A stretch of DNA of 64,000 nucleotides from Chitinivibrionales bacterium (lineage in GTDB: Bacteria > Fibrobacterota > Chitinivibrionia > Chitinivibrionales > WJKA01): contig WJLZ01000117.1 of assembly GCA_014728215.1 (NCBI GenBank), positions 1 through 64,000 of the forward strand, read 5' to 3'. A program made the position numbers and the translations under genes. Position 1 is the stretch's first letter, and each line of letters starts with the position of its first letter. Of this stretch, positions 19,029 through 59,929 are shown in pieces. A model generated the notes under the pieces. The model had not been told where the DNA came from. It was given only the letters and a program-made list of their open reading frames with translations, and made no database searches.

Positions 19029-19724
19029 ATGGCTGGAGGATTCATGCTTGATTCGCTTTTCGATATTAACAGAGGAGGAGGGCTTTTCCCCAGGGTTCCG
19101 GCAGGAGACATTGTTCTCCGGATGCTGGTTTCCATAGGATTCGGGCTGCTGTTGTCGCTATTACACGGAATGGTCCATCGGCGGATGGGAACAAAATCAA
19201 AGTTTCAATGGGCCCTTGCAGTGCTGCCGCTTATATCGGCTACTGTTATTCTCGTTATCGGCAATAATCTTGTGCGGGCTTTCGGTTTGATCGGGGCCGT
19301 GGCTCTGGTGCGTTTCCGTACGGTGGTAAAAAACTCTCTTGATATGTCGTTCATCTTTTTGGCAATCGCGCTTGGTATCGCTGCAGGGACCCATCTTTTT
19401 ATGATGGGAACTGCGGCATTTGCCCTCTTCGGCATTCTGCTGATTTCCATGGATATTCTCGGCTATGGTATAAGGGATAAGCGCCATCATAAATATACGG
19501 TTTCAATAAAGACAGATGATATTCATGCTGCCGACGGCTGGCTGCATATGCGACTGGGAGATTTGGTCATGAATTCTGAATTCAAAACAATTAGAAAATC
19601 TAAAAATTATGACCTTGTATATCGAATGGTTTTCAAAAAGGGTGTTACCTATCGTGATGTTATGACAAGGATAGATACAATTGCCGAAGGAAATATCAAA
19701 AATATCACCGTTCGCCGTTTATAG
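19029..19724 (+). CDS. DUF4956 membrane protein
   Basis: The 231-residue protein shows about four membrane spans (residues 29-48, 62-80, 84-100 and 108-142) and a cytoplasmic C-terminal domain (about 150-231). The hallmark RAFGLIGAVALVRFRT stretch of DUF4956 is present near residues 80-96. An alternative ATG at 19044 has the better ribosome site (GGAGG, four bases away). As far as I recall, DUF4956 genes elsewhere neighbour VTC-type polyphosphate polymerase domains and CotH kinases. Here the polymerase is absent but CotH lies two genes downstream. The role is unknown, possibly linked to surface or exported phosphorylation. Confidence 0.88.
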   Translation: MAGGFMLDSLFDINRGGGLFPRVPAGDIVLRMLVSIGFGLLLSLLHGMVHRRMGTKSKFQWALAVLPLISATVILVIGNNLVRAFGLIGAVALVRFRTVVKNSLDMSFIFLAIALGIAAGTHLFMMGTAAFALFGILLISMDILGYGIRDKRHHKYTVSIKTDDIHAADGWLHMRLGDLVMNSEFKTIRKSKNYDLVYRMVFKKGVTYRDVMTRIDTIAEGNIKNITVRRL

Positions 19725-19751
19725 CGGTCTTTTTTAGAGAGAAAATTGCAA

Positions 19752-20807
19752 ATGGATAAAACGACCATAAAAGCAAATAATTGTCAATTAAGCGCTTTGT
19801 TGCTGGCATGGGTAATTACACTCAGCATGTGTATTGCAGCGGATCTTTCAATGGATGGGGCCGTACGGACCGGGTATGGGTATGAGAATGATGGTTATTT
19901 CGATTTAACAACAGGCAAGCAGGTTAAAGATGCTTCTACACTGTATATTGTTGTTGGGCAACTTGATATTGAAGCGGTCGTTACCGACGATATTCTCGCA
20001 TTTATGGAAATATACGGAGATATAAACGATCTGGGTTTTATCCTTCGTGAGGCCTGGATAGAGTTTGACGCAGGTAAAAAGAAAACACTTCGTATCGGGT
20101 CGCAAAAAAAGGATTTCAGCCTCGAAGAACGTTCCAGTCGCCATGATCTGCGCACCATCGAACGTTCATTGTCCCATCGCTATATGGATTCATTTCATGT
20201 GCTGGGTTACGATTGGGATATACGATTTAAAAGAGAACGTGAACGTAGCGAAAATATGGAGCGGGATCTCTATGTGAGTATGGGCATTGATGGTGATATC
20301 AGATTTTTTCTTCTTGGAACCCTCGAATGGGAATGGCCGAAACGGAAAGTGGTCGTTTCTCTAATGCCTTTTCTTCACAACCGGCATCTGCCCTATGGAT
20401 TTGCCGGCTCGGCATTACAGTTTTTTAATAAGCGGTTCTATTTTACCTCCGAGCTTTTTGTCGGGATCGATCCCCACGCTACAAGGCTTTCGGGGATAAT
20501 AGAAGAAGAACGGTTCGTATATTTTATCACTCCCCGCGTGCTTGGGGCATATACGAAGTGGGCAAAATTTTTGAGAGTTTTTGAAGGGATAGAATTTGTT
20601 CTGGGACTCAGCGTTCTTTTCGATGATGCAGGGTATTCGCAAGATGCTAAAATGCAGGCTGTCCCGGGTGTGACACTCCTTTTTGATCAGGGGCGGGATG
20701 CGGTCTGGAAAACCAATGTCGATCTGGTATTCTCCAATGAACGTCCCGACCATGTTCTTGTCAATCAGAGTTTGTGGGTTCATACACAACTGCAGGTGGA
20801 ATGGTGA
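19752..20807 (+). CDS. Porin-like outer-membrane protein of the CotH operon
   Basis: The ATG at 19752 follows AGAGAG; a TTG two codons earlier is less likely. The 351-residue product has a signal peptide (about residues 1-32; LLAWVITLSMCIAADL). A large barrel-like body follows, rich in alternating strands (MDGAVRTGYGYENDGYFD, VVVSLMPFLHN, RFYFTSELFVGID), ending WVHTQLQVEW with a terminal aromatic residue. The mid-region AWIEFDAGKKKTLRIGSQKKDF resembles the phosphate-selective-porin style repeats, but I cannot assign a family. Its position between DUF4956 and CotH suggests it serves the same surface process. Confidence 0.75.
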   Translation: MDKTTIKANNCQLSALLLAWVITLSMCIAADLSMDGAVRTGYGYENDGYFDLTTGKQVKDASTLYIVVGQLDIEAVVTDDILAFMEIYGDINDLGFILREAWIEFDAGKKKTLRIGSQKKDFSLEERSSRHDLRTIERSLSHRYMDSFHVLGYDWDIRFKRERERSENMERDLYVSMGIDGDIRFFLLGTLEWEWPKRKVVVSLMPFLHNRHLPYGFAGSALQFFNKRFYFTSELFVGIDPHATRLSGIIEEERFVYFITPRVLGAYTKWAKFLRVFEGIEFVLGLSVLFDDAGYSQDAKMQAVPGVTLLFDQGRDAVWKTNVDLVFSNERPDHVLVNQSLWVHTQLQVEW

Positions 20808-21931
20808 TTATGCATGGCAGAACATTGCGACATTTACGTGTGGTTATTTTACTTGTTATAATAAATCTGGCTTGGGAAGGTTGTCTGGTCTTTGAACCAT
20901 GGGACAATGAAAACGATCCCGTTATGTATCTGCATTGTACGATGACCGAGGAAAACTACCACCAGTTGTTTAAATCGACCTATTATAATTCGTGGTTTGG
21001 AATTAACATATGTGAAGGCGATTCGGTTGTTGATGCCCGATTGCGTATTCATGGTAATGTTACAAGGAAAATGTTTAAAAAATCATTTCAGTATCGCACA
21101 TTCTCGCATTCTGTGCCCAGAAAAAAGATTAGGAGTACGGTACTTTCTGCATTCAGAGAAAACTCCTGTTCCCATTATCGCTATGCTGTATATTTCTTTT
21201 CCAAAACATCACTGCTTATTACCGACCATCAACCGGTGCGGTTGTATATCAACCAAAAAGACCATGGTCTGTACCTGAAGCTCGAAAAAATTGACGAACA
21301 CTTTTTCAGCCGCCGTAATTTACCCCTTTCCAGCCTCTATAAAATGAATGCCCGATCATATTTTGGCTTTCGCTACGGTACGGTCCAGCAGAATTTTGAT
21401 AAGAAAATACCCGATGATGATTGGAGTTTTGATGATTTGATCCAATTGAATCGAATCATTGAAGAGGGTATCACTGAAGAACGCCTGGAGTTTCTCTGGC
21501 ATTGGCTTGACAGCAGTAGTGCCCTGGACTATTATGCAATAAGCCGTCTGATCTATAACTGGGATGGTATCAACAATAATGTTTACTTATATTATAACAG
21601 CAGAATCAATAAATTCCAGTTTATTCCCTGGGACCTTGGCCATACTTTTGAGGGAAGCACGTTTTTTGTCGATGTCGAAAATGGCCTGGTCGAACAATTA
21701 CTCGAAATTCCTCATATAAGAAGTTCTGTTGAAAATCGGATGGCGCACTATTTTGATTATCCGCGGGATTCGGTAGCGCTCGATTCAATATTCTTTCATA
21801 CATACGATCATTGCCAGCACGATATCTTTGCCGACAGTACAAACAATGACTGTATCGAAGCACTCTACTCAATGCGCAGCTATATTAAAGGAGTCCGGGA
21901 CCGGCTCAGGGAGATGGGGTATAAGGAATAG
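20801..21931 (+). CDS. CotH kinase family protein, probable lipoprotein
   Basis: The frame overlaps the preceding stop; ATGs at 20801 and 20810 both fit, and the second sits better behind AGGTGG. The 376-residue product has an N-terminal hydrophobic leader ending WEGC (Cys28, probable lipidation). CotH features are GLYLKLEKIDEHFF (about 157-169), YNWDGINNNVYLYYN (252-266, catalytic-loop analogue) and FQFIPWDLGHTF (272-283, metal Asp). The usual PWDLD is PWDLG here. CotH proteins are atypical kinases; the spore-coat member phosphorylates CotB and CotG. An outer-membrane or periplasmic kinase role is inferred. It is a paralogue of the gene at 58805. Confidence 0.9.
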   Translation: MVIMHGRTLRHLRVVILLVIINLAWEGCLVFEPWDNENDPVMYLHCTMTEENYHQLFKSTYYNSWFGINICEGDSVVDARLRIHGNVTRKMFKKSFQYRTFSHSVPRKKIRSTVLSAFRENSCSHYRYAVYFFSKTSLLITDHQPVRLYINQKDHGLYLKLEKIDEHFFSRRNLPLSSLYKMNARSYFGFRYGTVQQNFDKKIPDDDWSFDDLIQLNRIIEEGITEERLEFLWHWLDSSSALDYYAISRLIYNWDGINNNVYLYYNSRINKFQFIPWDLGHTFEGSTFFVDVENGLVEQLLEIPHIRSSVENRMAHYFDYPRDSVALDSIFFHTYDHCQHDIFADSTNNDCIEALYSMRSYIKGVRDRLREMGYKE

Positions 21932-22975: not shown

Positions 22976-24355
22976 TTAAGAACGATGGTGTGGGTGGGGG
23001 GGATGCCAGATGTTTTTGAATGCCTTGCCGAAATGGTCTGTTTTCCGCTCGGGATACTTCTTTCCGACATTAAGTGCTGCCCTGCTCCAGAAAATGGCGA
23101 TGGCAATGGTTATAAACGAAAGCCATCGAAGGGTTGAAAAATCGGTAAATATCAGGGTGATAATCAGACTGACACCAATGGCCAGAACTTTTGCAAAACG
23201 CTGAACAAACATGTCGATAAATGCTTTGGCCTTATATTTTTCTTCTACAGTTACCGATACATAGAGAGCTTCTTTGGCCGACTGATTGATTGAATAGGCA
23301 AAGCCATTATCTGCGGTATTCAAAAAACTTCCCACCCAGAGAAGGGGGAAAAGCAAAAAAGCGGTTGACCCCGAGACCATTGCAATCGGCAGCACCAGAA
23401 GTGCGACGGTAATATTGTAATGGGTCATTATGAAGCCGGTTAAAAAGATCTGCACGAGCATGGAAACCCAGTTGGTTATCATATAAATAGTCGAGAACTG
23501 ACGTCCGATTTCCTTTCCACTCAAATAATATTCGATTGTGGCGGTAAACTGGAAATCCATAATGGTGGAAGCTATCTCGTAAAATGCAACAATCGCAATA
23601 ATAGAAAGAAGATATCTCGATTTGAAAACCAGCTTTGCTCCTGCTAACGCCGGATTGCTTTTTGTAGACGATGCAGGGGGCATCTGGTCTTCATGTTCAT
23701 CTCCATTTTCGGGAAGTTTTTTCAGCCATTGTCCTGCAAAGAAAGCAAGAATGATAATTATTCCGCTCATGGTAAAACAGATCCACATCCATTGGCTCCG
23801 ATCTATAACCTCGAGCCATGATCTGAGAATTGTGGCGCCGAATACGCCTCCCGCAACCCCTCCCAGACCTACGGGACCATAAATTCGTTTCGCCCGTTTT
23901 GGGGAGACGCTGTCATTGAGGAAGGCGAAGAATGTTGCTACCATAATTGTACTGAAAAGGTCTCCGACCAGATAAAATGTCCAGACGGAGATATGCGATG
24001 GAGTGCGAATGGTATAGCTGAAGATAACAAAGCAGGCCATGAAAAAAAGAGCAAAGGTGAAGGTCATTTTTTGACGGCGGAACCATCGGGACAGGAGGCT
24101 GAAGACCGTTACCGCACCGGCAGCGACAACCATATTCAATATCTTTGCAAGCAGTTCCGCCTGCGAACCCCACATCTGAAATGTCAAAAAATTGAATCCG
24201 CCGATCCGGTCGTAAAAGGTTATAAACAGCGATTTTTTTAAGGGTTTTAAAATCCAGAAAGTGCTGATAACCAGAAAAAAATAGAAAAACATTGCAAGAG
24301 CAAAGGGCAATTCATTTTTATGGATATCCATGAATGGTTTAATTATATTGCGCAT
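22976..24355 (-). CDS. TLC/Npt-type nucleotide carrier-like MFS protein
   Basis: The 459-residue polytopic protein has about 12 membrane spans. It shows features of the ATP/ADP-carrier (TLC, Npt1/Npt2-like) family. These are the N-terminal FYFFLVISTFWILKPLKKSLFI (LKPLKK motif, residues about 24-46), then GFLNDS-type loop FAFLNDSVSPKRAKRIYGPVGLGG, and ALYVSVTVEEKYKAKAFIDMFVQRFAK near residue 385. Family members exchange ATP for ADP or move other nucleotides; many free-living bacteria carry uncharacterised members. It starts 17 bases after the stop of the kinase-like gene, so the two are one operon. Confidence 0.85.
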   Translation of the reverse strand: MRNIIKPFMDIHKNELPFALAMFFYFFLVISTFWILKPLKKSLFITFYDRIGGFNFLTFQMWGSQAELLAKILNMVVAAGAVTVFSLLSRWFRRQKMTFTFALFFMACFVIFSYTIRTPSHISVWTFYLVGDLFSTIMVATFFAFLNDSVSPKRAKRIYGPVGLGGVAGGVFGATILRSWLEVIDRSQWMWICFTMSGIIIILAFFAGQWLKKLPENGDEHEDQMPPASSTKSNPALAGAKLVFKSRYLLSIIAIVAFYEIASTIMDFQFTATIEYYLSGKEIGRQFSTIYMITNWVSMLVQIFLTGFIMTHYNITVALLVLPIAMVSGSTAFLLFPLLWVGSFLNTADNGFAYSINQSAKEALYVSVTVEEKYKAKAFIDMFVQRFAKVLAIGVSLIITLIFTDFSTLRWLSFITIAIAIFWSRAALNVGKKYPERKTDHFGKAFKNIWHPPHPHHRS

Positions 24356-24372
24356 AAATGGAATACTCTCTT

Positions 24373-26055
24373 TTAGCGCTCCACTCCGGTCAGTACCGGA
24401 GGGGCATGGGTTTCTTTGTTAACATATACCTTGATTTCTTCACCCGATTTTTCACCATCCCGAATTGTAATTATATGAACCGCTTCACACATACTTTTTT
24501 CTGTGGCAGCCTGAACCGGCAGGCAAGGTTTTTCGGCTAGTTGCCATTCTGATTTGCGGGAGGGGCCGGAAACCGGCTTGATGCGATACCGGTACTGAGT
24601 TGCCCTTTTATCGGTAAATCCTGCTTTTACCGCCAGATCTTCGAAACAAAGATGATACGCTCCTTGCGCAGGTTCCTCGATACGAAATTTATCGAGCGGG
24701 TTGACCTCCTCATAAAATTCTCTCCCGATTTTATCTCTTCTCTTTTTCAATATATCGGCAATATAGCGTGCGGCATCGGGATTGGAATACTGCGCTGTTC
24801 CAACAATCGCGTCGATCTGCTGGTCGGTAAAAGACATGACAGTGCGTGCGGCCCAGAATCCATCCTGAGGGCTCATATTTGCAAAGGCTTTGTTGGGCAG
24901 AAGATAGCGAAACCGGTGAGGGCGCAACGTACGGGCTTCCCATGCTCCCACACTCGGTAACGGGATCGTATCCCACCGGTCATACAGAGGGGTATACAAG
25001 CCCAGGGTAATAAACCGCAATGCAATGATCGGAATATCGAAATAGTATTCGTGACCGTGTATTCTCGACATCGGACCTTGAGATGAGGCACCCAGTGTGC
25101 CGCCGAAATCCAGAAGATAATGGAGCACGTAGCCTTTGCCATTTTGGGTTATATAGGTGTCGAAGGTGTTGGCAACGGTAAGATCGTAATGATTGATCCA
25201 TGAGCCGATAACATACAGTGCCCGTAGTTCCCTCCGGTGCTGGTGGGGGATAAAATCATTGGGATCATCCTTTCGGGTACCTCTGAAACGCCAGGCGCTA
25301 AGGGGTTCTCCGGTGATATATTTGCTTGCCAGGCCGCGAACAAGGCCTTCTTCGGTTCGCTCTACAACTGCCAGGATCTTCTCGAGATGGTACCGGCTCA
25401 TCTCCCGGGTGCGCCCCTGTTCATCGATGATCGTTACTCCGCTGTCGATATCTATCCTGCGGGGATCGAAATAGACGATATAATTTTCGGGTACGCGGTA
25501 ACCCGCTGCATAAAGAATTTTGGTGGAAATCATTTCCGCGCCGCTGGTCAGCTCAGGATATCCCGGAGGATCCAGTTTGATGACATAGCGGTCTCCCCGT
25601 ACATCTTTGATATGGAACCCGGCCGATTTTCCGACATCCTTTGCACGAAAGATAAGCCACCGGTTGCTCATATCCGGACCACCGGTTGTATTGGGGCCCC
25701 TGACAATTTCATCAAGGCTCATTGTTCCCCCGGTCTTCCGGTTGACATACCAGCTCGAATTGGGTACTTCGCCAAATGCATTGATATTCATTGCAGGATA
25801 ATACCTCCCGGTGAGTTTCCTGATCTGACGGACCGGGTCGAGAGGATAGATGAATGAAGCCCGGGTTATGTTCATGATCCCGATACTGACAAAATTTCTA
25901 TCCTTTGTTTCAGGCATGGGTATATACTGCATATCGGGAGGAAAGGGCTCGGGGATTACACAGGGGTTTTCGTTTTCAGATCCCCCTATCACCATCCCTG
26001 CAAAGAGCATGACAAAGTATTTTAAAAGATGCTGTTGTGTTATTCTTCCTGCCAT
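24373..26055 (-). CDS. Secreted protein with kinase-like motifs, unnamed family
   Basis: The start at 26055 overlaps the preceding gene by 16 bases; a GTG three codons upstream is possible. The 560-residue product has a signal-peptide-like leader (KYFVMLFAGMVIGG, residues 12-25). No family name came to mind, but kinase-fold landmarks appear in order. They are RYVIKLDPPG (Lys160), SGAEMISTKIL (Glu174), HYDLTVANTF (Asp291, Asn296; catalytic-loop-like) and HYLLDFGGTLG (Asp316 in DFG). This order resembles HipA, Fam20 and CotH atypical kinases. The C-terminal part (about 440-560) is unassigned. Its exported location and neighbours suggest envelope phosphorylation; this is inference from motifs. 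Confidence 0.7.
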   Translation of the reverse strand: MAGRITQQHLLKYFVMLFAGMVIGGSENENPCVIPEPFPPDMQYIPMPETKDRNFVSIGIMNITRASFIYPLDPVRQIRKLTGRYYPAMNINAFGEVPNSSWYVNRKTGGTMSLDEIVRGPNTTGGPDMSNRWLIFRAKDVGKSAGFHIKDVRGDRYVIKLDPPGYPELTSGAEMISTKILYAAGYRVPENYIVYFDPRRIDIDSGVTIIDEQGRTREMSRYHLEKILAVVERTEEGLVRGLASKYITGEPLSAWRFRGTRKDDPNDFIPHQHRRELRALYVIGSWINHYDLTVANTFDTYITQNGKGYVLHYLLDFGGTLGASSQGPMSRIHGHEYYFDIPIIALRFITLGLYTPLYDRWDTIPLPSVGAWEARTLRPHRFRYLLPNKAFANMSPQDGFWAARTVMSFTDQQIDAIVGTAQYSNPDAARYIADILKKRRDKIGREFYEEVNPLDKFRIEEPAQGAYHLCFEDLAVKAGFTDKRATQYRYRIKPVSGPSRKSEWQLAEKPCLPVQAATEKSMCEAVHIITIRDGEKSGEEIKVYVNKETHAPPVLTGVER

Positions 26056-27443
26056 ACCCACCACGACTCCACTCCAAAGTTTAAATAGGCCCGAATATTT
26101 TCTTTGCTGAATGCCAGGTCAAAATCGAAAAGCAGCGTTGAACCGACATGAACACTGAGCCCGCCGCCGTAGCCGAATCTCAGATTGTCGGTGGTAAAAT
26201 TTTGAAAGATATCATCGGATACTTCACCGGCATCGATAAAGGCTTGAAAAATTATCCTGCGTTCGAAAAATTTCCAGATTGCGAAATGATATTCACCCGA
26301 AAAAAGAACAAAATCTTCGGCAATAAAGCGGCCGGCGTCATACCCCCGAACCGCGTCAGGACCTCCAATGTTGTTGAGCAGATAAAAAGGGATTTCCCTG
26401 TTTTCAAAGGGTTTTTTGAAGTTTCCTGCAACTCTGAATATGAAAAGGCGATCGGAAAGGCGCGGAATTTCCAGATAGGTTTTAAGGTCGACGAATGCAG
26501 TCATGAACCCGAAATCATCAACATTCACTTCATTGTGCACCCCACCGCCGATTTCGGCCCGTACGCCATTTACCGGAGGTATTTTTTCCCTTCGGGTATC
26601 AAGAATTACTCCGCCCCGTACTCCCAGAAAAAAAGGATCGCTTCTGAGGCCGGGAATTGAAGGGGCAAAGAAAAGCTCCTCTATCTCAGGCGCCTCATCT
26701 CCCCGTCCCTCGGATATAAACCAGGCATCGCCAAGGATGCCTGCCCAGGGAAAAATAATCCGATGCAACGGATACCGCATCGAGAGAATCAACTCGATGT
26801 TTCGTTGACCATAGATGCTTTCATTGCTTTCTCGGGTATCCGGTCCAATACCAAAAAATTCTTCATCTGGAATATAGCGATAGTTGATAGAGGTCCCAAA
26901 ATCAATATCACTATCGAGTATATCATATTTAATGAGTGTCAGATCTATACCATGGCGGTCAAGAGAGCCGTATCTGAGCATTCCCGATATCTGGAGTGAT
27001 GGGTCAAAGTTGTCCGTTGTGCTGAAATGTATTCCGAAACCGTCTCTGGGGAGATATGACGGCACAATAACAAAGGCCCGTCTTCCGAATAAAATGCCCA
27101 GAAGAACCTGGGCGATATTCCGTTCCTCCACAAAGTTGGCGACACCTGCACCGGCACGGGCCATCAAATAGATTGGAAGTGTCGGCATTCTTCCGAGCAA
27201 TGATACCGGATACTCCCATGCCGGGCGAGAGGGCCTTTTTTCAGGAAATGCTCCGGAATCGGCAAGGGTATCGGTTTCATCGTCTGTCCCACACATGCCT
27301 GCAGAAAGAAAACAGAGGATAAAAAAGGGGGCCAGAAACAGTCGTGGTGATTTCTTGTGTAAAGGGAGCGGTTTTTCGCACAAATGAGTATATATGTGTC
27401 GAAAATGGGAAATGATGAATATTGTACCATGTAATTGTTGCAT
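26040..27443 (-). CDS. Omp85/BamA-family outer-membrane barrel without POTRA domains
   Basis: The 467-residue product has a hydrophobic leader (about residues 35-50; LFLAPFFILCFLSAG) after an unusually long basic N-terminus, so the true start may be a later TTG. No POTRA repeats are visible. From about residue 120 the sequence is beta-barrel and includes the Omp85 lid-lock signature GGPDAVRGYDAGRF (about 365-378). The C-terminus is SWWVWQEE. Such short members are annotated as BamA/TamA-family or D15 surface antigens. First gene of a three-gene operon with the kinase-like and nucleotide-carrier genes, overlapping the former. Confidence 0.85.
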   Translation of the reverse strand: MQQLHGTIFIISHFRHIYTHLCEKPLPLHKKSPRLFLAPFFILCFLSAGMCGTDDETDTLADSGAFPEKRPSRPAWEYPVSLLGRMPTLPIYLMARAGAGVANFVEERNIAQVLLGILFGRRAFVIVPSYLPRDGFGIHFSTTDNFDPSLQISGMLRYGSLDRHGIDLTLIKYDILDSDIDFGTSINYRYIPDEEFFGIGPDTRESNESIYGQRNIELILSMRYPLHRIIFPWAGILGDAWFISEGRGDEAPEIEELFFAPSIPGLRSDPFFLGVRGGVILDTRREKIPPVNGVRAEIGGGVHNEVNVDDFGFMTAFVDLKTYLEIPRLSDRLFIFRVAGNFKKPFENREIPFYLLNNIGGPDAVRGYDAGRFIAEDFVLFSGEYHFAIWKFFERRIIFQAFIDAGEVSDDIFQNFTTDNLRFGYGGGLSVHVGSTLLFDFDLAFSKENIRAYLNFGVESWWVWQEE

Positions 27444-27685: not shown

Positions 27686-28627
27686 TCAGGGGTTTTTGAT
27701 TGGAACGGTGATCGTGAGGTTGACCCGTTCGGGTGAAAAATGGACATTTAATGCATTGAGCGGCAAGGGTGTTTGGGGAATGAGAAGATTGGTAAGGAGG
27801 GTGGCGCAGAAATTACCGAGGGATGCTCCAAAAAGGACATCGGAAGGATAGTGCTTCCGGGCCTCGACTCTTGCCCATGCTGTTGCGGCGGTGAGCAGGG
27901 AGAAGCCGACGGTGCTCAGGGTTTTGGCTACGGGGGCGATATCCATTCGGCGAACCATCTGTGCACCGACAGCGGCATGGACTGACGCGGTGGAAGTATG
28001 TCCCGAAGGAAAACTGTAGTCATCAGATTTGTCGGGACGAATACGATCGGTTTTTCGTTTCATGTGACGGGTAATCATACGATTGGCTTCAACCGCGCCC
28101 AATCCGGCGCCGACTCCTGTTATAACCGGCAAAACCCGGAGATCGGAATTCCCGAGTGTATACTTGAGAATCACGGCGGACTTGGCGCTGATTTGTGCTG
28201 CTTCAAGAAAACGATCGCTCGCCCGGCCTGCACGATCTGGTGAACCGAAAATCGGATTGGTTGAAGAAGCCCAATCGCTTATTGTCTTATCACCATTGAA
28301 CAAATATATCAAACCGGCTGCGGTGGCAGGTATCCAAAAGGAGGGAGAAGATGCGGCCTCAGTAACCGCTGAACTCACGTGCCTGACACCGGAATGTATC
28401 ATCGGAACACCATCGCGGGAGCCAATCCGATATGATGAACAACCGGTAAGAGAAAACAAAAAGATTCCTGCGGTAAGAAGAATAACTGATTGTGAAATGG
28501 AGCACATGCACAGGAATGATCTTGATAAAAATGACCCTGGCGATTTTTTGGAGCAGGAATTGGTTAAGCGTTTAAATTGCGATTTCAATGTGAATCTCTC
28601 CTGTTTTTCGGATTTTTGGGTTTCCAT
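27686..28627 (-). CDS. PAP2-family phosphatase, probable lipoprotein
   Basis: AAGGG precedes the ATG at 28627. That start leaves a 40-residue basic region before a hydrophobic signal and the lipobox SLTGC; an ATG at 28507 would give a standard 23-residue lipoprotein leader but lacks a ribosome site. The PAP2 motifs are complete: KRKTDRIRP (KxxxxxxRP), YSFPSGHTS (PSGH) and ARVEARKHYPSD (SRxxxxxHxxxD-like). Only one or two membrane segments are seen, so it is an exported phosphatase acting on lipid phosphates or undecaprenyl pyrophosphate-like substrates. Single gene. Confidence 0.87.
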   Translation of the reverse strand: METQKSEKQERFTLKSQFKRLTNSCSKKSPGSFLSRSFLCMCSISQSVILLTAGIFLFSLTGCSSYRIGSRDGVPMIHSGVRHVSSAVTEAASSPSFWIPATAAGLIYLFNGDKTISDWASSTNPIFGSPDRAGRASDRFLEAAQISAKSAVILKYTLGNSDLRVLPVITGVGAGLGAVEANRMITRHMKRKTDRIRPDKSDDYSFPSGHTSTASVHAAVGAQMVRRMDIAPVAKTLSTVGFSLLTAATAWARVEARKHYPSDVLFGASLGNFCATLLTNLLIPQTPLPLNALNVHFSPERVNLTITVPIKNP

Positions 28628-28818
28628 GAATCCCTTGTAAAACTGCAGACGTTTCTGATTTACCTGGTTTGTCGTATCTATAAAATAAATTAATGTATTA
28701 GAGAGAATCCGGTTGACAGGGATATGCGAAAAGTGGCCGGATATACCGGCCACTCCGCCTGCGGTCACTCATTTGTGCGATTTAAATGGATATTGCTGGA
28801 ACTTTGCGTTTTGCTCCA

Positions 28819-58804: not shown

Positions 58805-59929
58805 ATGATAACCCAAATCTTTATGCGGGCAACAGCATACAGCGTTCCAGTTGTGTGCATCCTGTGCGTTTCATGTGATGAGTATCCTCCTCGCCCCGAC
58901 AGAAACGGCTCACTGACGGTTGTTGAGCTTTTCATTGATGAATTCCGGTGGAGCGCTCTTTTGAAATCGAGCCATCTTGATGAATGGGAGGCGGTTTCGG
59001 TTGAAACCGACAGCGGTTTTTTTTATGGAAAAGTCCGTATGCATGGTGGGGTGTCCCGTCAGTATCCGAAAAAATCATTCAAGCTGGTCTGTTTCGACAG
59101 CGTTTACCGTGAGTGGGGAGATAAGGCAATGGTAATTTCCTCCCAGTTTTCCGATCGAAGTTTCTGTAAATATCGCCTTGCAAGTTATTTCTTTCGCAAA
59201 ACATCACTCCATGTACCCGATGACCGGCCTATGGAACTGTATGTCAATGGGCGCTATGTGGGGCTGTTTCTGGAACGTGAGCCGATCGATGAATATTTTT
59301 TGCATAAACGCGGATTATCCATAGCAAGTTTATACAAAACAAATTACGGCGCCCGATTTACATTCCGTCATGACATGCTTGCACAAAACGGCTGGCAAAA
59401 GAATGTTCCCGATGACGATATGACGTATATCGATCTGGAACGGCTTATTCTGACTTTAGATAAAGGGATTACCGAAGACCGGCTTGAAGAAATCGGCAGG
59501 ATTCTGGATATTCGCAATGTTCTCGAATACTATGCGGTAAGTCTTGTTATTGGTAACTGGGACGGCATAACAAAGAACTTCTATTTGTATTATAACCCGC
59601 TTGTCGGCCAATTCCAGTTTATCCCCTGGGATCTTGATCTGACTTTCCCCGGGAGGCCCGGGGAACTGCCGGAATATGAAAACGATCTATTCGAATATCT
59701 TGCCGAACTGCCGTCATGCAAGCCGATTCTCCATGATATTATGGCAGATATATTTGACCTCGATGAAGCCCTGAGAACGCTTCGTCGTTATGAGGAAGAG
59801 GTGAAGGATGCCTATTTCCGCGACCCGTATCTCGGTTCTTCTCCCGAAAAACAGTCCAGAAAGATCGAAGAAATCGAAGAATATCTTCGGGCCATGAATG
59901 CGGTGCTTGTGGAAATGGGTATTGAATGA
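58805..59929 (+). CDS. CotH kinase family lipoprotein, second copy
   Basis: The ATG at 58805 stands eight bases after GAAGGA; an ATG at 58796 overlaps the ribosome site. The 374-residue product has a leader ending LCVSC (probable lipid Cys). CotH features are GLFLEREPIDEYFL, GNWDGITKNFYLYYN and FQFIPWDLDLTFPG, here with the canonical PWDLD. It aligns along its length with the CotH at 20801, including KNVPDDDMTYIDL against KKIPDDDWSFDDL. Exported protein kinase activity is family knowledge, and the substrate is unknown. The Tyr-rich lipoprotein upstream is a candidate partner. Confidence 0.9.
   Translation: MITQIFMRATAYSVPVVCILCVSCDEYPPRPDRNGSLTVVELFIDEFRWSALLKSSHLDEWEAVSVETDSGFFYGKVRMHGGVSRQYPKKSFKLVCFDSVYREWGDKAMVISSQFSDRSFCKYRLASYFFRKTSLHVPDDRPMELYVNGRYVGLFLEREPIDEYFLHKRGLSIASLYKTNYGARFTFRHDMLAQNGWQKNVPDDDMTYIDLERLILTLDKGITEDRLEEIGRILDIRNVLEYYAVSLVIGNWDGITKNFYLYYNPLVGQFQFIPWDLDLTFPGRPGELPEYENDLFEYLAELPSCKPILHDIMADIFDLDEALRTLRRYEEEVKDAYFRDPYLGSSPEKQSRKIEEIEEYLRAMNAVLVEMGIE

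Follow-up and report, generated by a model that had tools for sequence, protein, structure and literature searches.

An outer-membrane barrel, an exported HipA-like protein and a nucleotide carrier as a candidate unit for ATP-fuelled phosphorylation outside the bacterial cytoplasm

Background

The periplasm is generally regarded as a compartment without ATP. Kinases of the secretory pathway are served by luminal ATP/ADP exchange, and the NTT nucleotide carriers are antiporters. Each of the protein families closest to the locus described here has been surveyed elsewhere. A survey of the relatives of the HipA kinases names ten gene organisations (PMC8262856), and a search of its text for a signal peptide or the periplasm returned no mention of either. 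The Omp85 superfamily includes proteins lacking an N-terminal extension, termed "noNterm" (PMC4104836), while fusions of NTT carriers with HEAT repeats (NTT-HEAT) are widespread, of unknown function, and have cyclic-nucleotide-binding partners (Major et al. 2017, PMC5381601). ATP/ADP translocases (K03301) have been recorded in 20 of 36 Omnitrophia and 11 of 31 Aquiviventia, and a role in ATP scavenging during symbiosis has been suggested (Seymour et al. 2023, PMC10066038). The first-pass annotation of the present locus knew of no described system of its form, and our search of the open-access literature likewise found none.

Compared with these systems, the locus and its relatives (i) show the Lys, Glu, Asp..Asn and Asp landmarks of the HipA-like Ser/Thr kinases (HipA_C, HipA_2) in unchanged order and register, but encode proteins of 430-600 aa with extra domains that are exported or lipoproteins, are coupled to a carrier and a barrel, and were seen with no HipB/HTH antitoxin gene, (ii) resemble the CotH kinases in that these, too, are exported atypical kinases of bacteria, abundant in Fibrobacterota, but show no profile similarity to them beyond decoy level, and CotH kinases require no carrier, (iii) recall Fam20C and the Golgi casein kinase by functional analogy, as exported atypical kinases supplied by a membrane ATP/ADP exchanger, but are bacterial, belong to another kinase family and have an outer-membrane barrel as partner, (iv) contain carriers of the NTT/TLC type, mostly with HEAT repeats in Omnitrophota, which differ from the described NTT/TLC carriers, NTT-HEAT fusions included, in having an exported kinase-like protein as genetic partner, and (v) possess, as in the noNterm group, an Omp85 barrel alone, which is here always paired, wherever this could be tested, with one specific exported kinase-like protein.

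Results

The window analysed is a 64,000-nucleotide stretch of DNA from a Chitinivibrionales bacterium (Fibrobacterota), whose genome measures 5.0 Mb. The first-pass annotation had described three genes on one strand that overlap or lie 17 bases apart, an arrangement confirmed by the minus-strand open reading frames (Table 1). The second gene can also be read from an ATG at 26055, giving 560 instead of 563 aa and reducing its overlap with the barrel gene from 25 to 16 nt; residues are numbered here from the GTG, so that the Lys160 and Asp316 of the first-pass annotation, counted from the ATG, become K163 and D319. The AAGAGAG motif in the spacer before the carrier gene may be a ribosome-binding site. 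Promoter and terminator matches were about as frequent as expected from shuffled sequence. A PAP2-superfamily phosphatase gene (27686-28768, minus strand) lies 242 bp upstream of the barrel gene on the same strand; it was considered as a fourth member and rejected, as it is not conserved beside the trios of relatives.

Table 1. Features of the trio in the window (window coordinates), with examples of a neighbouring gene in related loci (locus coordinates)
Feature	Position	Strand	Residue kept in 65 homologues	Remarks
POTRA-less Omp85-superfamily barrel gene	26040..27443	-		first gene of the trio; 467 aa; signal peptide, V-R-G-Y motif
Putative exported HipA-like (atypical) kinase gene	24373..26064	-		second gene; 563 aa from GTG; HipA-like on the basis of relatives and hhalign
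TLC/NTT-type nucleotide carrier gene	22976..24355	-		third gene; 459 aa; without HEAT domain; about 10 hydrophobic segments
Barrel/kinase gene overlap	26040..26064	-		from ORF coordinates and sequence
Kinase-carrier spacer, 17 nt	24356..24372	-		from sequence; contains AAGAGAG
Glycine-rich-loop-like stretch, K142-G149	25618..25641	-		lies between model strands 1 and 2; from conservation
K163, putative beta3 ATP lysine	25576..25578	-	84%	aligns with HipA lysine
E177, putative helix-C glutamate	25534..25536	-	92%	within model helix 170-186
D294..N299, putative catalytic Asp and metal-binding Asn	25168..25185	-	D294 85%, N299 88%	aligns with HipA N-D-x-H-x-x-N motif
D319 of DFG, putative metal-binding Asp	25108..25110	-	D319 97%, F320 95%	
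DUF5329 gene, examples	L048 10208-10822; L050 5606-6208; L064 11455-12048			

The identity of the two outer genes of the trio agrees with the initial description. The product of the first, which has a signal-like N-terminus, matches Pfam Omp85 (PF01103) with E=1.5e-14; no Pfam POTRA match was found in it or in 26 homologues, and 26 of the 27 homologous neighbours gave an Omp85 match only. The carrier, for which a TLC/Npt-like nature had been proposed, matches Pfam TLC (PF03219) with E=1.9e-16 and 60.4 bits against a curated cut-off of 21, as did all eight members of its family that were scanned, and the family profile matches the solved ADP,ATP carriers 9j3n and 9j3j (E about 4e-31). With 47 bits against the 387.2 demanded by NCBIfam TIGR00769, it falls far below the cut-off for classical NTTs, and thus is assigned to a distant branch of the TLC/NTT nucleotide carriers.

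The middle protein, taken alone, matched no Pfam or NCBIfam family, and its family as a whole matched neither PADLOC nor NCBIfam. The Lys-Glu-(D..N)-DFG landmarks of an atypical kinase noted at first pass are indeed present (K163, E177, D294..N299, D319-F-G) and, being kept at 84-97% in 65 homologues, are not due to chance. In a Pfam scan of 57 individual members of the family, just two Pfam families were matched by more than two members: HipA_2 by 19 of them (best E=5e-4) and HipA_C by 7. A profile of the kinase family aligned by hhalign with 30 HipA proteins of the same phylum at a probability of 24 and E=8e-4 over 223 columns, as against E=0.06 for the best of about 20 unrelated profiles from the same loci used as decoys; in this alignment the Lys, the Glu, the Asp..Asn pair and the last Asp of the family fall on the corresponding HipA residues. 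Since the curated cut-offs of HipA_C and HipA_2 are not reached, either by the window protein, which gives no match, or by its best-scoring relative, we call the protein HipA-like in sequence features, and not a HipA.

Structure prediction gave models of low confidence. The AlphaFold model of the full-length protein is poor (pLDDT 52); it places strands at residues 136-142, 149-153 and 159-164 followed by a helix at 170-186, which is the order of a kinase N-lobe. The 50 best PDB matches of the central-domain model (pLDDT 46) were all kinase-fold entries, none with E<1e-3, and were headed by the Golgi casein kinase 4kqa (E=2.8e-3 with the trimmed model) and an amicoumacin kinase. The full-length model mainly retrieved fibronectin-like domains aligned to the C-terminal region, which was uninformative. 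A Rheb-like stretch from the single-sequence PDB search (E 0.03) spans 45 residues only and was set aside, and armadillo-repeat matches of the family profile were dismissed as noise. CotH was rejected as the family of the protein, with no match to PF08757 and an hhalign probability of 2.4 (E=0.019), and no Fam20 chain appeared in PDB sequence searches with the protein or its family profile. The first-pass proposal of an atypical kinase, to be compared with HipA, Fam20 and CotH folds, is supported: the HipA resemblance comes out of the Pfam scan of family members and of the profile alignment against decoys, whereas the kinase-domain model is of low confidence, CotH drops out, and Fam20 is left with weak structural matches of low-confidence models. 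Judged by these sequence features, the middle protein is probably a HipA-like kinase.

Nearly all intact homologues, the window protein included, begin with a charged, a hydrophobic and a small-residue segment of the signal-peptide type, and a subfamily without barrel carries lipoboxes. Because our signal-peptide heuristic also flags cytosolic proteins (22 of 27 RnhB and 11 of 27 MurA), the call of export rests on the visible n-h-c pattern of the N-terminus and on the lipoboxes, and not on the heuristic count; on these grounds the middle protein is predicted to be exported by a signal peptide.

To what extent the three genes stay together was surveyed in two phyla. Kinase homologues were detected in 3 of the 168 genomes of Fibrobacterota and in 59 of the 384 of Omnitrophota, whereas plasmids and viral contigs yielded none at the sensitivity applied. 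A genome of another, distant Fibrobacterota family (G158, locus L010) carries carrier, kinase, barrel and carrier on one strand plus a divergent barrel-kinase pair, hence two barrel-kinase pairs and two carriers. The Omnitrophota operon often follows trmD-rplS-rnhB-yraN and reads carrier-barrel-kinase or barrel-kinase-carrier. Wherever a barrel-type locus is not truncated by the end of its contig, the barrel adjoins the kinase, while a second type of locus (eleven loci, L087-L097) consists of a carrier and a lipoprotein kinase and has no barrel. The carriers of this second type, like most Omnitrophota carriers, are NTT-HEAT fusions of about 800 aa. The association of carrier and kinase is a specific one, since 41 of the 50 TLC genes found in Omnitrophota have a kinase gene no more than 3.5 kb away. 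Five of the remaining nine, three of classical size and two NTT-HEAT genes, clearly lack this linkage; another three run into the end of a contig, and the last is a fragment. By genome, the kinase is present in 42 of the 47 Omnitrophota with a TLC gene (naive Fisher p=9e-36, kinship uncorrected) and in two of the three TLC-bearing genomes among the 168 Fibrobacterota (p=6e-4). The conservation of the trio, proposed as a check at first pass, thus extends to a second family of Fibrobacterota and to numerous Omnitrophota, and these gene orders indicate that the association is old. Three Omnitrophota genomes (L166, L167 and L168) possess NTT genes of classical size (about 470-490 aa) unlinked to a kinase, which may be true carriers of energy parasites.

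Further genes accompany the operon in Omnitrophota. In nine loci the gene immediately ahead of the barrel encodes an exported PTP/DSP-fold phosphatase bearing an HCxxGxERTG motif (e.g. L061, 10267-10989), and all nine are carrier-linked with a complete kinase ATP site. About twenty loci encode a small DUF5329 (PF17263) protein, which in several of them is a lipoprotein and which often neighbours the carrier. Neither gene was found beside the trio of the window. The window contains, in addition, two CotH-kinase genes (20774-21931 and 59033-59872, both on the plus strand), the first of which has as neighbours a DUF4956 gene (19029-19724) and one for a porin-like protein (19746-20807). CotH was detected in 46 of 61 Fibrobacterota genomes, with up to 13 matches each, even though TLC genes are confined to the three genomes above. 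Exported kinases of this phylum thus do not generally require a carrier, a point against the supply of the present kinase by its carrier neighbour.

The first-pass annotation had suggested that the carrier feeds the kinase. We compared five residues of the putative ATP site between carrier-linked kinases and unlinked ones for which 3.5 kb or more of flanking sequence was available in each direction. The site is complete in 40 of 42 carrier-linked and in 3 of 15 carrier-less kinases (naive Fisher p=5e-8). K163 is present in all 42 linked proteins and in 6 of the 15 others, and D319 is likewise present in 42 of 42. The largest drops in conservation among the carrier-less proteins affect K142, K163, G149, N299 and D294, each of which belongs to a putative nucleotide-binding element; K142 and G149, invariant in the linked set, fall to 33% and 47%. 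In contrast, of the 38 positions with a conservation of 93% or more among the linked kinases, about two thirds are kept in the carrier-less proteins, mostly at close to 100%. With decay concentrated in the nucleotide site and other positions kept, the carrier-less homologues look like pseudokinases with a retained fold.

Exceptions and shared descent qualify this pattern. Three carrier-less homologues (L003, L071 and L078) keep the full site, the genome of L078 having a carrier elsewhere, and one carrier-linked copy of L010 (4648-6273) has lost D294 and E177. On a tree from which the ATP-site columns were left out, there are 7 changes in carrier state and 6 in the state of the site, and 5-7 of the carrier changes count as independent. 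In 5 independent pairs the site follows the carrier in 1.7 on average and opposes it in 0.0 (sign test, median p 0.5); with so few pairs the test cannot reach significance, and the link is not significant by itself. Most of the signal comes from one nine-sequence carrier-less clade that has decayed in several different ways. The first-pass annotation had counted loss of the lysine or the DFG aspartate in homologues against its reading; such losses do occur, but chiefly where the carrier is missing, which speaks for the carrier feeding the kinase. That suggestion is thus supported by the residue counts, though without significance on the tree. A separate clade of the kinase family (L010 4648-6273, L085 1-1474, L086 6958-8544 and L098 54-1145) carries Gly at the position of the catalytic Asp (HQSGMRPDN type); its complete members are lipoproteins with a barrel, and one copy is carrier-linked.

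Discussion

Taken together, gene content and residue conservation make it fairly probable that the trio is a unit for ATP-fuelled phosphorylation outside the cytoplasm, in which the carrier swaps ATP and ADP, the exported kinase uses the ATP and the barrel is its partner. The TLC/NTT carrier of the inner membrane would exchange cytosolic ATP for periplasmic ADP, and the HipA-like kinase would spend that ATP and return ADP, driving further exchange. As ATP is high inside and ADP would be made outside by the kinase, the net exchange would be ATP out and ADP in; the cycle would be closed, with phosphate groups alone being spent. The POTRA-less barrel would be the fixed outer-membrane partner of the kinase, most likely as docking site, exit route or substrate. 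Since the barrel persists after loss of the ATP site and the carrier, and since the barrel-less kinases are lipoproteins, the simplest reading is that it holds or receives the kinase. In some Omnitrophota, the exported dual-specificity phosphatase would reverse the kinase reaction. We infer the catalytic activity, the direction of exchange, the substrate and the role of the barrel alike.

The exported protein might instead have a kinase fold that catalyses a different reaction with nucleotides, for example AMPylation or glutamylation, on ATP supplied by the carrier. We think this unlikely: the family is remote from any characterised kinase and SidJ, a kinase-fold glutamylase, is among its weak structure matches, but both the full K-E-D-N-D set of the carrier-linked members and the exported PTP/DSP phosphatase that accompanies some of them fit phosphotransfer better.

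It is a little less probable still that the carrier imports ATP from outside, as the carriers of Chlamydiae and Rickettsiae do, in energy parasitism or scavenging, with the barrel and the kinase being neighbours for another reason and the barrel perhaps admitting nucleotides. The Omnitrophota translocases have been read as symbiosis factors (PMC10066038), and some carriers of this phylum are of classical size and unlinked; yet most are kinase-linked, even without a barrel in L087-L097, the nucleotide site of the kinase decays mainly where the carrier is absent, and the genome of the window is not reduced.

That the kinase-like protein is chiefly a plug, chaperone or anchor for the barrel, with its nucleotide site a sensor or relic and the carrier meeting an unrelated local need, would suit a barrel-kinase pair that outlasts both carrier and ATP-site residues, but is very improbable given how strongly the ATP site is constrained in every carrier-linked line and that the barrel-less lipoprotein subfamily retains it.

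Returning to carrier-fed phosphorylation, the linkage of 41 of 50 TLC genes to a kinase makes it likely for most of the published Omnitrophota "ATP/ADP translocases" that they are the genes seen here; these translocases are probably, for the larger part, carriers of the kinase-linked system. The reading of such genes as signs of symbiosis or parasitism (PMC10066038) would then change, and the trio offers a role for the uncharacterised NTT-HEAT fusions of these lineages. More broadly, we consider it an evenly balanced question whether some bacteria keep a working periplasmic ATP pool, filled by a carrier that sends out ATP and takes in ADP, on which an exported kinase paired with a barrel and, in some lineages, an exported phosphatase would carry out reversible phosphorylation. 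If true, a carrier-fed periplasmic kinase would represent a novel way of powering the bacterial envelope and of signalling in it, with a logic similar to that by which kinases of the eukaryotic secretory pathway are supplied with ATP.
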